From positions 3,100,001 to 3,164,000 of the forward strand of contig NZ_JAFBCF010000001.1 in assembly GCF_016907535.1 (NCBI RefSeq): DNA of 64,000 nucleotides, given 5' to 3'. The notes under the pieces are model-generated. The model was not told where the DNA came from. It did not search any database and worked only from the letters and a program-made list of their open reading frames with translations. Positions 41,198 to 60,230 of the stretch are shown here, one piece after another. Both the position numbers and the translations under genes were made by a program. Numbering within the stretch: the stretch's first letter is position 1; each line of letters opens with the position of its first letter. The DNA comes from Microlunatus panaciterrae. Its GTDB lineage: Bacteria > Actinomycetota > Actinomycetes > Propionibacteriales > Propionibacteriaceae.

Positions 41198-41430
41198 CGC
41201 CCTGACCCTGTTTGTAGGGCCGCGCCCTGAGCCTGTCCTGAGCCTGTCGAAGGGTCGCGTCCTGACCCTGTTTGTAGGGCCGCGCCCTGAGCCTGTCGAA
41301 GGCCGCGCCACGCCCCTAAGCGACTGTGCAGATCCTGATCACTCTGTGCAGGCCCTCAGACGTCTGCACAGAGTGACGGGGGCCTGCACGGTGAGGCTCA
41401 GGGCGCGGTCCTTCGACAGGCTCGGGACGC
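41198..41430. repeat. Palindromic repeats flanking a 71-bp element, 3' of valS
   Basis: Several CCTGAGCCTGTCGAAGG-type copies and half copies (about 41225-41252, 41284-41302) and an inverted copy near 41409-41429. They interleave with two CCTGACCCTGTTTGTAGGGC units (about 41200 and 41260). The 71-bp element at 41322-41391 sits between them. Confidence 0.85.
41322..41391. repeat. 71-bp hairpin element, copy 1
   Basis: Has the same layout as the copies at 57015 and 58095: two TGTGCAG motifs then two inverted CTGCAC motifs at matching distances. The central hairpin has arms CACTCTGTGCAG and CTGCACAGAGTG, a perfect 12-bp stem. Confidence 0.7.
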
Positions 41431-44063: not shown

Positions 44064-44149
44064 CGTAAGACGTCAGGGCCCGCGCATCCTGGTTGTCCAC
44101 AGCCTCACACCTGCGGACCGCCGTTGGGCAGGCCCATGGCGTCGGCGAC

Positions 44150-54977: not shown

Positions 54978-56972
54978 ATGACCACCACTGCTGATCCCAC
55001 CACCGTTGAGCACCGTGCCGCCTCGAACGACCACGACCCCGGATCCCTGTTCTGTCGGCTCGAGCCGCTGCTTCCCAAGGTCGGCAAGCCGATCCAGTAT
55101 GTCGGCGGAGAGCTGAACAGCGTCAGCAAGGACTGGTCGTCAGTCGACGTCCGCTGGGCCCTGATGTATCCCGATGCGTACGAGGTGGGGCAGCCGAACC
55201 AGGGGGTGGCCATCCTCTATGAGGTGCTGAACGAACAGGACTGGATCCTGGCCGAACGCACCTACGCCGTCTGGGCTGACCTGGAGGCGATGCTGCGCGA
55301 GCACCGGATTCCGCAGTTCACGCTGGACTCGCACCGTCCGGTCGGCGCCTTCGACGTGCTCGGGCTGAGCTTCGCCACCGAGCTGGGCTACACCAACATG
55401 CTGAACGCGCTGGACCTGGCCGGGATCGCGCTGCACGCCGTCGACCGCTCCGAGGACGACCCGATCGTGCTGGCCGGCGGGCATGCGGCCTTCAACCCGG
55501 AGCCGATCGCCGACTTCATCGACGCGGCGGTGCTCGGCGACGGCGAGGAGATCGCGCTCAAGATCTCCGAGGTGATCCGCGAATGGAAGGCCGAGGCCCG
55601 ACCCGGAGGGAGGGATGGGCTGTTGCTGCGGCTGGCCGCCGGAGGTGGCGTCTACGTTCCGAAGTTCTACGACGTCGACTATCTGCCCGACGGCAGGATC
55701 CAGCGGGTCGCACCGAACCGCAGCGGGGTGCCGTTCCGGGTCGCCAAGCACACTCTGATGGATCTGGACGCCTGGCCCTACCCGAAGAAGCCGCTGGTGC
55801 CGCTGGCCGAGACGGTGCACGAGCGCTACTCGGTGGAGATCTTCCGCGGCTGCACCCGTGGCTGCCGGTTCTGCCAGGCGGGCATGATCACCCGGCCGGT
55901 GCGCGAGCGCAGCATCGAGACCATCGGGGCCATGGTGCAGGGTGGGATCGAGGCCACCGGCCTGGAGGAGGTGGGGCTGCTCAGCCTGTCCAGTGCGGAC
56001 CATTCCGAGATCGGTGAGGTCACCCGCCAGCTCGCGGATCGCTATGAGGGTAGCAACATCTCGCTGTCACTGCCCAGCACCAGGGTCGACGCGTTCAACA
56101 TCGACCTGGCCAACGAGCTGTCCCGCAACGGGCGGCGGTCCGGGTTGACGTTCGCGCCGGAGGGTGGCTCCGACCGGATGCGCAAGGTGATCAACAAGAT
56201 GGTCGACGAGGACGACCTGATCCGGACCGTGGCTGCCGCCTACAGCAACGGCTGGCGTCAGGTGAAGCTCTACTTCATGTGTGGGCTGCCGACCGAGACC
56301 GACGATGACGTGCTGGCGATCGCGGACCTGGCCAGGCGCGTGATCGCGACCGGGCGCGAGGTCAGCGGCCGGCGCGACATCCGTTGCACGGTGAGCATCG
56401 GCGGCTTCGTGCCGAAGCCGCACACCCCGTTCCAGTGGGCTGCCCAGCTGGACGCCGAGACGACCGACGCCCGGCTGGCCAAGCTGCGGGACGTGATCCG
56501 CTCCGACCGGGCGTACGGCAAGGCGATCGGATTCCGTTACCACGATGGGAAACCCGGCATCATCGAAGGGCTGCTCAGCCGCGGTGATCGTCGGGTCGGC
56601 AAGATCATCGAGGCTGTCTGGCGCGACGGTGGCCGGTTCGACGGCTGGAGTGAGCACTTCTCCTACGACCGCTGGGTCGCCTGCTCCGCGTCGGGTCTCG
56701 AGGGCACCGGCGTGGACCTCGACTGGTACACGGTGCGCGAGCGCGACTACGACGAGGTGCTGCCCTGGGACCATCTGGACTCGGGGCTGGACCGCGACTG
56801 GCTCTGGGAGGACTGGCAGGACGCGCTGGACGAGGTCGAGGTCGACGACTGTCGCTGGACCCCCTGCTTCGACTGCGGCGTCTGCCCTCAGCTGGACACC
56901 ACCATCCAGATCGGGCCCACCGGCCGGTCACTGCTGCCGATCGCCTCGGTCAGCTCCGGCGTCGCTCGTTGA
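54978..56972 (+). CDS. TIGR03960-family radical SAM protein
   Basis: 664 aa. The N-terminal B12-binding-like domain (VRWALMYPDAYEVGQPNQGV) is followed by the radical SAM core with CX3CX2C in FRGCTRGCRFCQAGMITRPV, binding a 4Fe-4S cluster. C-terminal part: IGGFVPKPHTPFQWAAQ, FRYHDGKPGIIEGLLSRGDR, and a Cys-rich end CRWTPCFDCGVCPQ. It is the partner of TIGR03936; the two are adjacent or fused in many Gram-positives and sit before rne. The function is not established, with RNA or protein modification suspected. Here the partner is 2.5 kb away behind two inserted genes. Confidence 0.95.
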   Translation: MTTTADPTTVEHRAASNDHDPGSLFCRLEPLLPKVGKPIQYVGGELNSVSKDWSSVDVRWALMYPDAYEVGQPNQGVAILYEVLNEQDWILAERTYAVWADLEAMLREHRIPQFTLDSHRPVGAFDVLGLSFATELGYTNMLNALDLAGIALHAVDRSEDDPIVLAGGHAAFNPEPIADFIDAAVLGDGEEIALKISEVIREWKAEARPGGRDGLLLRLAAGGGVYVPKFYDVDYLPDGRIQRVAPNRSGVPFRVAKHTLMDLDAWPYPKKPLVPLAETVHERYSVEIFRGCTRGCRFCQAGMITRPVRERSIETIGAMVQGGIEATGLEEVGLLSLSSADHSEIGEVTRQLADRYEGSNISLSLPSTRVDAFNIDLANELSRNGRRSGLTFAPEGGSDRMRKVINKMVDEDDLIRTVAAAYSNGWRQVKLYFMCGLPTETDDDVLAIADLARRVIATGREVSGRRDIRCTVSIGGFVPKPHTPFQWAAQLDAETTDARLAKLRDVIRSDRAYGKAIGFRYHDGKPGIIEGLLSRGDRRVGKIIEAVWRDGGRFDGWSEHFSYDRWVACSASGLEGTGVDLDWYTVRERDYDEVLPWDHLDSGLDRDWLWEDWQDALDEVEVDDCRWTPCFDCGVCPQLDTTIQIGPTGRSLLPIASVSSGVAR

Positions 56973-57014
56973 GCCCGCCGGGCACTGTGCAGACCGTCGA
57001 GACCCACCACGGCA

Positions 57015-57085
57015 CACTGTGCAGGCCCTCGCCGTTCCGTGCAGGGCTCCGGGCGCCTGCACGGAGTGCCCACGGACTGCACGGA
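57015..57085. repeat. 71-bp hairpin element, copy 2
   Basis: Aligns without gaps to 58095-58165 with 59 of 71 identical bases, in the same orientation. Core hairpin arms CCGTGCAGG and CCTGCACGG. A partial extra copy (CACTGTGCAG) lies at 56983. It sits just after the TIGR03960 gene. Confidence 0.85.
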
Positions 57086-57095
57086 GCGCTGGCAC

Positions 57096-58004
57096 TCATC
57101 GTGCCGCCCGGGCGAAGGCCCGCTGAAGCCTGTCCCGGATGACCTGCGGCCGCTGCAGGTCATCCCAGATCCAGCGGACCACCTGCCAGCCGAGGTCGCG
57201 GAGGGCGTCCTCGCGCTGTTTCTCGGCGAACAGTACGTCGGCGGCGGTCTGTCCGGGGCGCAGCAGCCGGCCGTACTTCACCCTGCCGTCGAACTCGCCG
57301 AGGGTGCGTTGCTCCGGCCAGCCGAAGTCGGACCGGCCGGCCAGGGTGCCGGTGGGACCGAAGACCTCGTACTGCAGCTCCACCGGCAACAGACCGAGCC
57401 GATCCAGAACGACCCGGCTCAATGACTCGCCCGGGCTCTCGCTGCGACCGTCGAGGAAGGCCGCCACCCGGCGGGCCCCGGCCACCCCCGGCCAATGCCG
57501 CATCCGCCCAAGCATCTGCTCCAGCTGGTCCCGGTCAAGGCCGGCGGCCAGCGCCTGGTCGCCCGCCGCGACCGCCTGCCGGTAGGGGAGTGTCCTGCTG
57601 AGGTCGGCGACCGTCCGCGCCAGCGACGTGACACGTACACCGGCGAGTTCGACCACGTCACCGTCCGCCAGCGGTGCCGAGTGCAGGTGCAGCTGCCGTC
57701 CGCGGCGGCCTCCGCTGGAGCGGTCACGGGTGAAATGCACCCGCTCGAGCCGGGTCCCCCACACGGGAAGGTCATGCAGGAGGGCGGCCGACTCGTGGCT
57801 GACGACCGCCTCCGGGGAGATGTCGTGCAGGCAGGCGCGGAGCAGCCGCTCGTGGACGTCCCGCACCGGAGGCGGCTGCTCCGGCGGCTCGACGTAGACC
57901 CCGCGGCGTATCCCGATCAGCTCGCCGCGGTGCCGCATCCGCGCGATTTCGTCTCGCTGATATCCGGCTGCCAGCAGGTTGCGGCGGAGAATGAGGTCAT
58001 CCAT
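57096..58004 (-). CDS. AbiEi-like / DUF559-like protein
   Basis: 302 aa. The N-terminal winged-helix region (LLAAGYQRDEIARMRHRGEL, RRGVYVEPPE, AVVSHESAALLHDLPVW) resembles the AbiEi antitoxin domain. The C-terminal part is a Vsr/DUF559-like nuclease fold: GRSDFGWPEQRTLGEFDGRV with Asp and Glu-X-Asp, then EKQREDALRDLGWQVVRWIW. Such proteins are abundant and highly multiplied in actinobacteria; no AbiEii-type toxin gene is next to it, so it is not called a toxin-antitoxin pair. It is flanked by direct 71-bp repeats and lies inside an otherwise conserved gene pair, suggesting insertion. Confidence 0.85.
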   Translation of the reverse strand: MDDLILRRNLLAAGYQRDEIARMRHRGELIGIRRGVYVEPPEQPPPVRDVHERLLRACLHDISPEAVVSHESAALLHDLPVWGTRLERVHFTRDRSSGGRRGRQLHLHSAPLADGDVVELAGVRVTSLARTVADLSRTLPYRQAVAAGDQALAAGLDRDQLEQMLGRMRHWPGVAGARRVAAFLDGRSESPGESLSRVVLDRLGLLPVELQYEVFGPTGTLAGRSDFGWPEQRTLGEFDGRVKYGRLLRPGQTAADVLFAEKQREDALRDLGWQVVRWIWDDLQRPQVIRDRLQRAFARAAR

Positions 58005-58094
58005 CCGTCCAGTCCAACGCCTCTGACAGTGCGGGTCGGGCCCTGGAGACGATCTGTGGATAGCTTTTTGGAGCCCTAATGACCTGAGTCACGC

Positions 58095-58165
58095 CACTGT
58101 GCAGATCCTCTCTGTTCCGTGCAGGTCTCCGAGGGCCTGTACGGAGTGCGTACCGTCTGCACGGA
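58095..58165. repeat. 71-bp hairpin element, copy 3
   Basis: Gap-free alignment with 57015-57085 (83% identical). Core hairpin arms CCGTGCAGG and CCTGTACGG (one mismatch). It lies between the AbiEi-like gene and the MFS gene. Confidence 0.85.
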
Positions 58166-58177
58166 CGCGGGGGACGC

Positions 58178-59440
58178 TCAGCGGCGCTGCCGGCGATGCT
58201 CCAACTCGTCCTCGAGGAACTTCGGCCGGACGGCCAGCAGACCCATGACGAGCAGCGGGATCGCCAGGGCGATCAGGAACAGCTTGGGCACCACCCAGCC
58301 GCCGGTGGCGGCGTGCAGCACACCGACCAGGAACGGCCCGGGCGCTGCGATCAGGTAGCCCACGCTCTGGGTGAACCCGGACAACGCCGCGGTGCCCTGG
58401 CTGGTCCGTGCCCGCAGCCCGATCAGGGCCAGGATCACGGGGAAGGCGGCCGTCCCCAGAGCCAGCAGGATCGCCCACAGCCACGGCAAGGCGGACGGCG
58501 CCAGGAGCAGCCCGACATAGCCGCCGACCAGGCAGCAGAAGATCAGCACCAGCAGCCCTGACGGTTGCCGCTTCCGGGCCGTGTAGGCAGGGAACAGGAA
58601 CGCGAGCGGGATCCCCACGACGGCCGAGATGCCGAGGAAGAACCCCGAGGCGGCGGTGGAGTAGCCCGCGTCCTGGTACATGGTGGCGAGCCAACCGAAG
58701 ATGGCGTACGCCTGCATCGACTGAACGCCGAAGAAGACCGCCAGGATCCAGCCCAGCCGGGTGCGGGCCACCTGGCGGATGCTTATCGGCGCGCCCTGCA
58801 CCGCAGTCGCCTCCCCGGGAGTCGGCACGTCCGGGCTGTCATGGCGCACCAGCAGCAACCAGGGCAGCACGGCCACTGCTGCGGTGATGGCCCAGATGCC
58901 CAGGCCCCAGCGCCAGCCGCCGAGAGCGTGCGCGATCGGCACCGTCAGCATGCTGGCGGCGGCGACCCCGATCGTCATCGAGGTCGAGTAGAGGGCGGTG
59001 ACCAGCCCCACCCGATGGCTGTAGTGCAGCTTGACCAAAGAGGGCAGCAGGACGTTGGCGGCGGCCATGCCGGACAGACCGACCATGGTGGACAGCAGGA
59101 AGACCAGTGCGGAACCGGTCGCCGCGCGGATCAGCTGCCCGACGATGACCAGGCCGAGCGCGGTCAGCATCACCCGGTGCACCCCGAACCGGGCGGCTGC
59201 CATCGGTGCCAGCGCGCCGAAGCCCGAGAAGCACAGCACCGGCAGGGCGGTCAGCAGACCCGCCAGGGCGGGCCCCATCCCCAGCTCGCCGGTGATGGTC
59301 GGCAGGAAGGGGCCGAGGGCGACCGCCAGCGGACGGAGGTTGAACGCCAGGATCAGCAGACCCCCGATCACGAGCCAGCGCGACTCGGGCAGCCCGCCGC
59401 CGCGGCTCCGAGTGGACTGCTGGGTCTGCCCGGTTTCCAT
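58178..59440 (-). CDS. MFS transporter, CynX/NimT-like
   Basis: 420 aa with about twelve membrane segments. WLVIGGLLILAFNLRPLAVA and the following LPTITGELG are typical of the CynX/NimT (cyanate/nitroimidazole) branch; the central cytoplasmic loop is HDSPDVPTPGEATAVQGAPI; the second half starts at ARTRLGWILAVFFGVQSMQA. The exported or imported substrate is unknown. The ATG at 59440 has AGGAGGAACG directly upstream, better than the longer frame from 59530. Inserted on the opposite strand between TIGR03960 and TIGR03936. Confidence 0.92.
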   Translation of the reverse strand: METGQTQQSTRSRGGGLPESRWLVIGGLLILAFNLRPLAVALGPFLPTITGELGMGPALAGLLTALPVLCFSGFGALAPMAAARFGVHRVMLTALGLVIVGQLIRAATGSALVFLLSTMVGLSGMAAANVLLPSLVKLHYSHRVGLVTALYSTSMTIGVAAASMLTVPIAHALGGWRWGLGIWAITAAVAVLPWLLLVRHDSPDVPTPGEATAVQGAPISIRQVARTRLGWILAVFFGVQSMQAYAIFGWLATMYQDAGYSTAASGFFLGISAVVGIPLAFLFPAYTARKRQPSGLLVLIFCCLVGGYVGLLLAPSALPWLWAILLALGTAAFPVILALIGLRARTSQGTAALSGFTQSVGYLIAAPGPFLVGVLHAATGGWVVPKLFLIALAIPLLVMGLLAVRPKFLEDELEHRRQRR

Positions 59441-59497
59441 CGTTCCTCCTGAACCGACCTGACGTTGCCGGCGACCAACCGTAACCGGCTCCGACGG

Positions 59498-59503
59498 TAT
59501 CCT
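59498..59503 (+). promoter_or_regulatory. Candidate leaderless -10 box for the TIGR03936 gene
   Basis: TATCCT, exactly 7 nt before the GTG at 59511. A private promoter is expected since the gene is cut off from TIGR03960. Confidence 0.55.
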
Positions 59504-59510
59504 CGTCGCC

Positions 59511-60230
59511 GTGTCCGAGAAGCAGCGCACCCAGCCTGAGCAGCATGCGCCCCCGGTGCAGAAGATGCGGCTGCGCTATGCCAAACGCGGTCGGGCCCGC
59601 TTCACCAGCCACCGGGACTTCTCGCGGGCCTTCGAGCGGGCGCTGCGTCGCGCGGGCATTCCGATGGCCTACTCGTCCGGCTTCTCGCCGCATCCGCGGA
59701 TCTCGTACGCCAACGCCTCGCCGACCGGAGCAGCCAGCGAGGCCGAGTACCTGGAGATCGGCCTGGCCGCCGAGTGTGACCCCGACCGGGTGCGGGCCGC
59801 GCTGGACGAGGCCCTTCCGCCCGGCCTGGATGTGGTCGAGGCCATCGTCGCCCCGCCGGGCGCCCTGGCCGACCTGCTGACCGGCTCGCTCTGGCAGATC
59901 CGGCTCCCCGGGATCGATGCCGCGGAGCTGGGTGCTGCCTGCGAGAACTTCCTGGGCCAGTCGTCGGTCCTGGTCCAGCGGATGACGAAGAACGGCATCC
60001 GCAGCTTCGACGCCCGCCAGGCGGTGGTGTCGCTGCGCGTCTCGGACGGGGAGATCCTGCTGGTCTGCCGACACCAGACCCCGCTGGTGCGGCCGGACGA
60101 CGTGCTGACCGCGCTGGGAGAGGTCTCGCCGTCGTTCGCGCCGGTCGAGGTTCCAGTCATCACCCGGCTCGCCCAGGGCACCCTGGAGGAGGAGACCGGC
60201 GAGATCGCCGACCCGCTGACCGTACGCTGA
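59511..60230 (+). CDS. TIGR03936-family (DUF2344) radical SAM-associated protein
   Basis: 239 aa. MRLRYAKRGRARFTSHRDFS and RALRRAGIPMAYSSGFSPHP followed by RISYANASPTG are the family signatures. It partners TIGR03960 radical SAM proteins; in Firmicutes and others the two can be one polypeptide. The C-terminal third is more variable. The exact role is unknown. It is upstream of rne, the usual location, with a 308-bp leader region between. Confidence 0.95.
   Translation: MSEKQRTQPEQHAPPVQKMRLRYAKRGRARFTSHRDFSRAFERALRRAGIPMAYSSGFSPHPRISYANASPTGAASEAEYLEIGLAAECDPDRVRAALDEALPPGLDVVEAIVAPPGALADLLTGSLWQIRLPGIDAAELGAACENFLGQSSVLVQRMTKNGIRSFDARQAVVSLRVSDGEILLVCRHQTPLVRPDDVLTALGEVSPSFAPVEVPVITRLAQGTLEEETGEIADPLTVR

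Follow-up and report, generated by a model that had tools for sequence, protein, structure and literature searches.

The closest described relatives of the locus analysed here are the REP and REPIN sequences with their RAYT (TnpA-REP) enzymes. According to the available text of two studies, such repeats are short, palindromic, often genome-specific and intergenic, and often lie in convergent gaps near the 3' ends of genes; the enzyme gene is flanked by its own class of repeat, and several classes can occur in one genome (PMC3733652, PMC3116915). A second point of comparison is AbiEi, the antitoxin of type IV AbiE systems, the winged helix of which is known to bind inverted repeats. According to the accessible part of PMC3985639, the S. 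agalactiae AbiEi recognises inverted repeats in its own promoter, which it represses, and the repression requires the winged helix. MITEs and insertion sequences share with the locus a gene bracketed by repeats and solitary repeat copies elsewhere. The protein of the locus also resembles Vsr and I-Bth0305I, the latter an EDxHD nuclease with homing behaviour.

The window, which is the whole stretch of 64,000 nucleotides that was analysed, contains a pair of direct repeats that bracket one gene, here named AbiEi-Vsr (Table 1). As given in the preliminary description, the repeats at positions 57015-57085 and 58095-58165 align without gaps in the same orientation, with 59 of 71 bases identical (83%); their starts are 1080 bp apart. 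The central hairpin described there is also present, with CCGTGCAG at 57037 and CTGCACGG ending at 57064. The two motifs separated by 8 to 24 nucleotides occur once in the window, compared with 0.00 occurrences expected from shuffled sequences. The repeat unit, nearly palindromic and 68 bp long, consists of two forward octamers followed by two reversed ones, placed in exact 20-bp steps with 12-bp linkers. The octamers read CYGTGCAG, CYGTGCAG, CTGCACRG, and CTGCACRG, or near forms, and start at 57017, 57037, 57057, and 57077 in the downstream array and at 58097, 58117, 58137 (degenerate), and 58157 in the upstream array. The majority consensus of the window repeat over both strands is a perfect palindrome.

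Table 1. Features of the AbiEi-Vsr locus and related repeat copies in the window.
Feature	Position	Strand	Remarks
Partial repeat copy (first 15-17 bp) beside the downstream array	56983..56999	+	
Four-octamer palindromic array, 3' of the AbiEi-Vsr stop codon	57017..57084	.	also 44 bp past the stop of the radical SAM gene
AbiEi-Vsr gene, 302 aa	57096..58004	-	ORF, PADLOC, AlphaFold and structure alignment
DnaA-box-like site CTATCCACAG	58054..58063	-	about 50-60 bp before the AbiEi-Vsr start codon
Four-octamer palindromic array, 5' of the AbiEi-Vsr gene	58097..58164	.	also 13 bp past the stop of the MFS gene
Solitary full copy of the window repeat	41324..41391	.	between two convergent genes

The AbiEi-Vsr protein is composed of winged-helix and AbiEi-like domains (residues 1 to about 185), followed by a nuclease domain similar to those of Vsr and I-Bth0305I (residues about 188-302). 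AbiEi models of PADLOC match the protein, the best of them over residues 12-165 (E 4e-20), and Pfam gives AbiEi_4 alone, below its cut-off. The AlphaFold model has a pLDDT of 93.0 and a pTM of 0.88. Aligned with VIA-align, residues 1-185 match the AbiEi antitoxin 6y8q (Z 12.0, rmsd 6.4 Å over 169 residues), and residues 190-302 match the I-Bth0305I homing-endonuclease domain 3r3p (Z 11.3, rmsd 2.8 Å over 97 residues); the nuclease domain also matches Vsr, 1cw0 (Z 8.8). The earlier proposal of an AbiEi-like, nuclease-like protein is thereby borne out, with the nuclease predicted to be Vsr-like, of the PD-(D/E)XK type. Residues E193, S194, D226, E237, D239, G240, and K243 are invariant among 32 aligned sequences. 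E193, D226, E237, D239, and K243 are predicted to be catalytic, and both the fold and the predicted acidic active-site residues agree with the Vsr-like/EDxHD nuclease superfamily. Of 60 fetched loci, 58 keep the nine nuclease signature positions, two of these with T in place of S194. The winged-helix region is more variable than the nuclease (identity 0.33 versus 0.49). AbiEi-Vsr homologues are present in 59 of the 77 genomes searched at E ≤ 1e-20, including the window genome, which has three. Sequence searches found no PDB chain at E ≤ 1 and no family for the protein in NCBIfam or PHROGs. No relatives were found in plasmids (E ≤ 1e-20), phages (E ≤ 1e-8), or viral contigs, in collections that may omit records near the window genome.

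Membership of the REP/RAYT class fails because a Y1 transposase and an end tag are both absent. PF01797 (Y1_Tnp) has no match in the window genome at E ≤ 0.01, whereas control matches were found in 6 of 14 genomes. Inspection by eye of 12 aligned copies with 30-bp flanks showed no GTAG or CGTC tag; the ends start with CYGTGCAG or a near form. Moreover, the enzyme is AbiEi-Vsr, and the repeat is built of four octamers at 19-20 bp steps. In contrast to type IV AbiE antitoxins, AbiEi-Vsr is fused to a nuclease domain, its arrays are also located downstream of the gene and dispersed, and no AbiEii-type toxin gene is directly beside it, the immediate neighbours being the radical SAM and MFS genes. 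It differs from Vsr and I-Bth0305I in being fused to AbiEi and encoded by a free-standing gene flanked by palindromic arrays. Unlike in MITEs and insertion sequences, the gene between the repeats does not encode a known transposase, and the ends are four-site palindromes.

A search with the four-octamer pattern, allowing up to three mismatches, identified 12 full copies of the window repeat in the 4.07-Mb genome and none of the reversed control pattern. A covariance model recovered the identical 12 copies and two weak matches; these two, and ten weak partial or indel-bearing matches examined among those listed, are all inside called coding sequence. According to a codon-usage gene caller made for this analysis, all 12 full copies are intergenic: eight are between convergent genes, three between genes on the same strand, and one between divergent genes. 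The share of convergent gaps (8 of 12) exceeds the background of 7 in 34 window gaps of at least 68 bp (p = 7e-4). The convergent neighbours of the solitary copy in the window are, judging from their translations, presumably genes of a TetR-type regulator and a valyl-tRNA-synthetase-like protein. The lone copy in a divergent gap is located around 2046-2113 of L126 (2244 kb in the window genome), and the gene beside it reads as what we take to be a broken peptidase-like gene. Near another copy is an Rfam match to the actinobacterial sRNA Ms_IGR-5 (87.3 bits, L015 555-777), apparently unrelated to the repeat. The dnaA gene is at 2.03 Mb; copies are slightly more numerous toward the origin, but not significantly so (KS p 0.067).

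The flanking copies are mutual nearest relatives, with 82% identity compared with a mean of 70% over all pairs. The copies at 1117951 and 2794399, 1.7 Mb apart, are also mutual nearest relatives, with 87% identity. The probability that two among 12 random positions fall within 1080 bp is 0.034. Therefore, the repeat pair in the window genome alone is only suggestive, and becomes firm through the comparison across genomes. The four-octamer pattern itself is absent from the other 197 of the 198 genomes of the family and from the other 390 of the 391 genomes of the order, a set that overlaps that of the family. The covariance model matches 4 of 76 other genomes, weakly and once in each (E 0.0016-0.0091); three of the matches are inside called genes, and the fourth, in L049, is intergenic, with no AbiEi-Vsr gene within 1.5 kb on either side. 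The sequence at that match (L049 1501-1570, genome G040) reads as consecutive CTGCAGGGACC-like repeats between genes. The window repeat has no match in plasmid or phage collections, and the exact three-octamer pattern none in viral contigs, although records close to the window genome may be missing from these collections.

Flanking repeats are a general property of AbiEi-Vsr genes. One genome per species was compared. In a first comparison of 33 AbiEi-Vsr loci with 400-bp flanks, left-right repeats were found at 30 loci at E ≤ 1e-5, with sequences specific to each locus. A larger test, overlapping the 33, used 300-bp flanks of 60 loci from 34 genomes, picked from more than 150 matches listed, strongest first and spread over genomes; 59 loci were usable, as one had no flank. 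At E ≤ 1e-8, left-right repeats are present at 44 of the 59 loci and at none of 538 control genes. Relaxed to E ≤ 1e-3, the count is 52 of 59, compared with 6 of 110 neighbouring control genes and 19 of 428 control genes from 20-kb stretches, both of which sets have none at E ≤ 1e-8. Restricting these 428 to the 101 that have 60 bp or more of free sequence on each side gives counts of 0 and 2 at the two thresholds. The seven loci without a left-right repeat even at E ≤ 1e-3 all keep the signature residues, and four of them (L181, L151, L185, L159) retain the TCCACAG site described below; the seven include the G016 copy, for which none was found after its bounds had been corrected by hand. The preliminary description would have been refuted by repeats occurring throughout the genome with no association with this gene type. 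Only half of that condition applies: 10 of the 12 copies in the window genome are away from the gene, but the association with the gene type is strong across genomes. An early reading of the locus, in which a REP-like repeat was dispersed and the gene incidental, was overturned by this comparison of flanks.

The repeats of other loci share the geometry of the window repeat. Among distances between direct 8-mers in 36 kb of AbiEi-Vsr flanks, 19 bp (68 runs) and 20 bp (28 runs) dominate, compared with 6 runs at each distance in 66 kb of control flanks. A step of 19 or 20 bp is present at least once at 39 of 61 loci, compared with 10 of 110 controls. Complete arrays, with two sites forward and two reversed, occur at several loci, for example at L162 on both sides (-179 and -160 forward, -144 and -125 reversed; 4 and 23 forward, 39 and 58 reversed), at L160 on both sides, and at L164 and L163 on one side each, with motifs unlike those of the window. 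The 19-20 bp steps would place the octamers near one face of the helix.

Within the copies of the window repeat, the octamers are better conserved than the linkers. Mismatches to the consensus are found in 33 of 384 octamer cells and 128 of 432 linker cells (p = 1e-14). The contrast is also seen in seven copies found by plain BLAST (13 of 224 versus 70 of 252), and therefore octamer conservation is not solely a product of the octamer-based search. Compensatory pairing is absent: 275 within-copy pairs were counted compared with a shuffled mean of 284, and 464 of 500 shuffles were as high. In REPINs, on the other hand, compensatory pairing is reported to be common in the available text of PMC3116915. 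Conserved octamers without compensatory pairing agree better with predicted sites of protein binding on double-stranded DNA than with an RNA hairpin. A structured RNA was ruled out, with no credible Rfam family at the arrays and no covariation, and so was an intrinsic terminator, with no T-run terminator at the two arrays scanned.

AbiEi-Vsr genes also tend to have a common upstream site. The sequence TCCACAG is present within 200 bp upstream of 51 of 61 AbiEi-Vsr genes and downstream of none of the 61, compared with 0 of 110 and 12 of 428 control upstream regions. The site has the form T-any-TCCACAG at 44 genes and TTRTCCACA at 28. Thirty-two of 67 upstream sites are at -60 to -51, and a second group is near -90. 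Table 1 of PMC4285127 gives TTGTCCACA as the DnaA box with high affinity in M. tuberculosis and S. coelicolor. A single TTGTCCACA occurs in the window outside the AbiEi-Vsr locus, at 44093-44101. At 31 of 59 AbiEi-Vsr genes, the upstream neighbour points toward the gene and the downstream neighbour against it (background 7 of 34, p = 6e-8), indicating that the unit of gene and repeats is preferentially located between convergent genes, like the solitary arrays.

Repeats shared between genomes are found mostly beside AbiEi-Vsr genes. At E ≤ 1e-4, cross-genome repeat matches within 400 bp of another AbiEi-Vsr gene comprise 13 ordered or 9 distinct locus pairs, compared with two matches elsewhere, one of which is about 435 bp from an AbiEi-Vsr gene. 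That 400-bp zone accounts for 6.3% of the compared sequence (9 of 11, binomial 8e-10). At the looser E ≤ 1e-3, the numbers are 24 ordered pairs near AbiEi-Vsr genes versus 8 elsewhere. Orthologous loci were defined by the same neighbour genes in different species. The arrays of one locus match each other with 52-102 bits, whereas orthologous arrays match across species with 0-46 bits, in 8 of 8 ortholog pairs from four groups. Because the array units had been selected by their within-locus match, the comparison was repeated with whole intergenic gaps, giving 52-102 bits within a locus versus 16-51 bits across species, again in 8 of 8. The arrays of one locus change in concert between species.

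Other AbiEi-Vsr genes have dispersed repeats of their own; the genome-wide count above is for the window repeat family, and those of other families come from sampled DNA. In the window genome, the repeat of the AbiEi-Vsr gene at 579 kb has a copy at 1604.4 kb and at three places in a 400-kb sample, and that of the gene at 802 kb has one dispersed copy in the sample. In G006, two of the three AbiEi-Vsr genes fetched have extra repeat copies in sampled DNA. The dispersed copies of other genes' repeats in these two genomes form 12 stretches in 11 gaps and overlap no called gene. Repeat units of other genomes have no matches in the samples of the window genome and G006, and no solitary copies were found in 100-kb samples of G018 and of G003.

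The preliminary description had regarded the gene and its two repeats as a small insertable unit. Bracketing is general, but joint movement of the gene with two repeats is not borne out. The relatives yielded no single-repeat empty site. In G013, the order is radical SAM, a different gene, which we take to be PPOX-like, MFS, and DUF2344, with neither AbiEi-Vsr nor array; the gaps of about 52 and 9 bp by present gene calls leave no room for an array. An AbiEi-Vsr orthologue with one in-frame stop is at the same place in G016 (L150 1391-2304); it retains the DnaA-box-like site, its downstream array has a different motif, and an upstream array is lacking. In G002, another AbiEi-like gene, from its translation presumably also DUF559-like, follows the same radical SAM gene and has a weaker flanking repeat (1.7e-6). 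G004 is Microlunatus speluncae, of the same GTDB genus as the window genome; over 1.2 kb its locus is identical to a record that carries this name. Several AbiEi-Vsr genes are at the same place in different species, indicating that they are long-resident rather than often hopping and that movement of the gene is rare.

The reading that we consider probable is that the AbiEi-Vsr gene and the repeats form an enzyme-plus-repeat system, in which the protein binds its own arrays and the nuclease spreads and homogenises them. We infer its binding, cutting, and movement. The encoded winged helix would bind the octamers, by analogy with AbiEi antitoxins that bind inverted repeats, and the Vsr/EDxHD-type nuclease may nick or cut at the bound arrays. 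Repair or copying would then spread and homogenise the arrays and keep the gene bracketed, and expression may be timed by DnaA. Overall, such a system would resemble REP sequences and RAYTs working with an unrelated enzyme. A more far-reaching form of the proposal is offered tentatively, as a possibility to which we give somewhat less than even chances: AbiEi-Vsr genes may be a new class of self-propagating element, in which a DnaA-timed, sequence-specific nuclease would bind its own four-site palindromic arrays, copy them into convergent gaps, and convert all of them as its winged helix changes. Such elements would parallel REP/RAYT but be based on a nuclease, would be widespread in Actinomycetes, and would each give rise to a separate family of repeats.

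The presence of the DnaA-box-like site in most upstream regions, the orthologous positions across species, and the conserved octamers would also be expected if neither gene nor arrays were mobile and the protein bound the arrays as fixed landmarks of chromosome maintenance, serving replication, supercoiling, or recombination between convergent genes; expression of the protein would be linked to DnaA, and the motifs would co-evolve with its specificity. This explanation is unlikely, since the genome-specific families and the 87% identical copies 1.7 Mb apart suggest copying, and three repeat families side by side in one genome would be odd for landmarks. It is improbable that AbiEi-Vsr is a solitary AbiE-type defence or toxin-antitoxin-like protein and the arrays are its own operators. 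Autoregulation of AbiEi through inverted repeats, described in the accessible part of PMC3985639, and the PADLOC matches to AbiEi agree with that role, but a toxin gene is not directly beside AbiEi-Vsr, where radical SAM and MFS genes are found instead. In addition, the second array is 3' of the stop codon and most copies are distant, past the stops of other genes, where an operator is not expected; a role as operators alone would hardly account for arrays at such sites.

Bidirectional transcription terminators, that is RNA hairpins repeated by coincidence, would account for stable predicted hairpins just past stop codons, yet pairing is no better within copies than between them, a hairpin needs no fixed 19-20 bp steps, and the two arrays scanned lack the T-run; we regard this explanation as very improbable. 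The least probable explanation is that the repeats are ordinary intergenic elements of REP or MITE type and that a pair of them happens to flank the gene. Twelve intergenic copies, a preference for convergent gaps as described for REPs in the available text of PMC3733652, and the close-pair probability of 0.034 agree with such repeats, but flanking repeats at 44 of 59 homologous loci versus 0 of 538 controls, and cross-genome matches mostly beside AbiEi-Vsr genes, do not. The chance-flanking reading is refuted, unless the sampled loci are unrepresentative.

Among the titles and abstract starts listed from the open-access (PMC) literature, none was found that joins AbiEi or DUF559 genes to such repeats. 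The association across species points to a partnership of AbiEi-Vsr and repeat previously unrecognised, as far as that literature goes. In genome annotation, AbiEi-Vsr homologues would appear as AbiEi antitoxins or as proteins with an endonuclease domain. If each AbiEi-Vsr is the partner of its own repeat family, many orphan 'antitoxins' would gain a testable role, species-specific intergenic palindromes in Actinomycetes would gain a source, and the REP/RAYT way of genome living would have a second, unrelated solution. The varying motif on a fixed 19-20 bp geometry would amount to a naturally occurring panel of DNA specificities for winged helices, and a link to replication timing is suggested by the DnaA-box-like sites upstream.

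The gene content of the interval between the radical SAM and DUF2344 genes (window 54978-60230) differs by species, with an MFS gene in G013 and a second AbiEi-like gene in G002; a gene that we take to be PPOX-like is in the interval in 9 of 10 relatives' loci read. Elsewhere in the window genome, one convergent gap (L125 about 1913-2293, 1604.4-1604.8 kb) contains solitary copies of two repeat families, that of the AbiEi-Vsr gene at 579 kb and that of the window gene.
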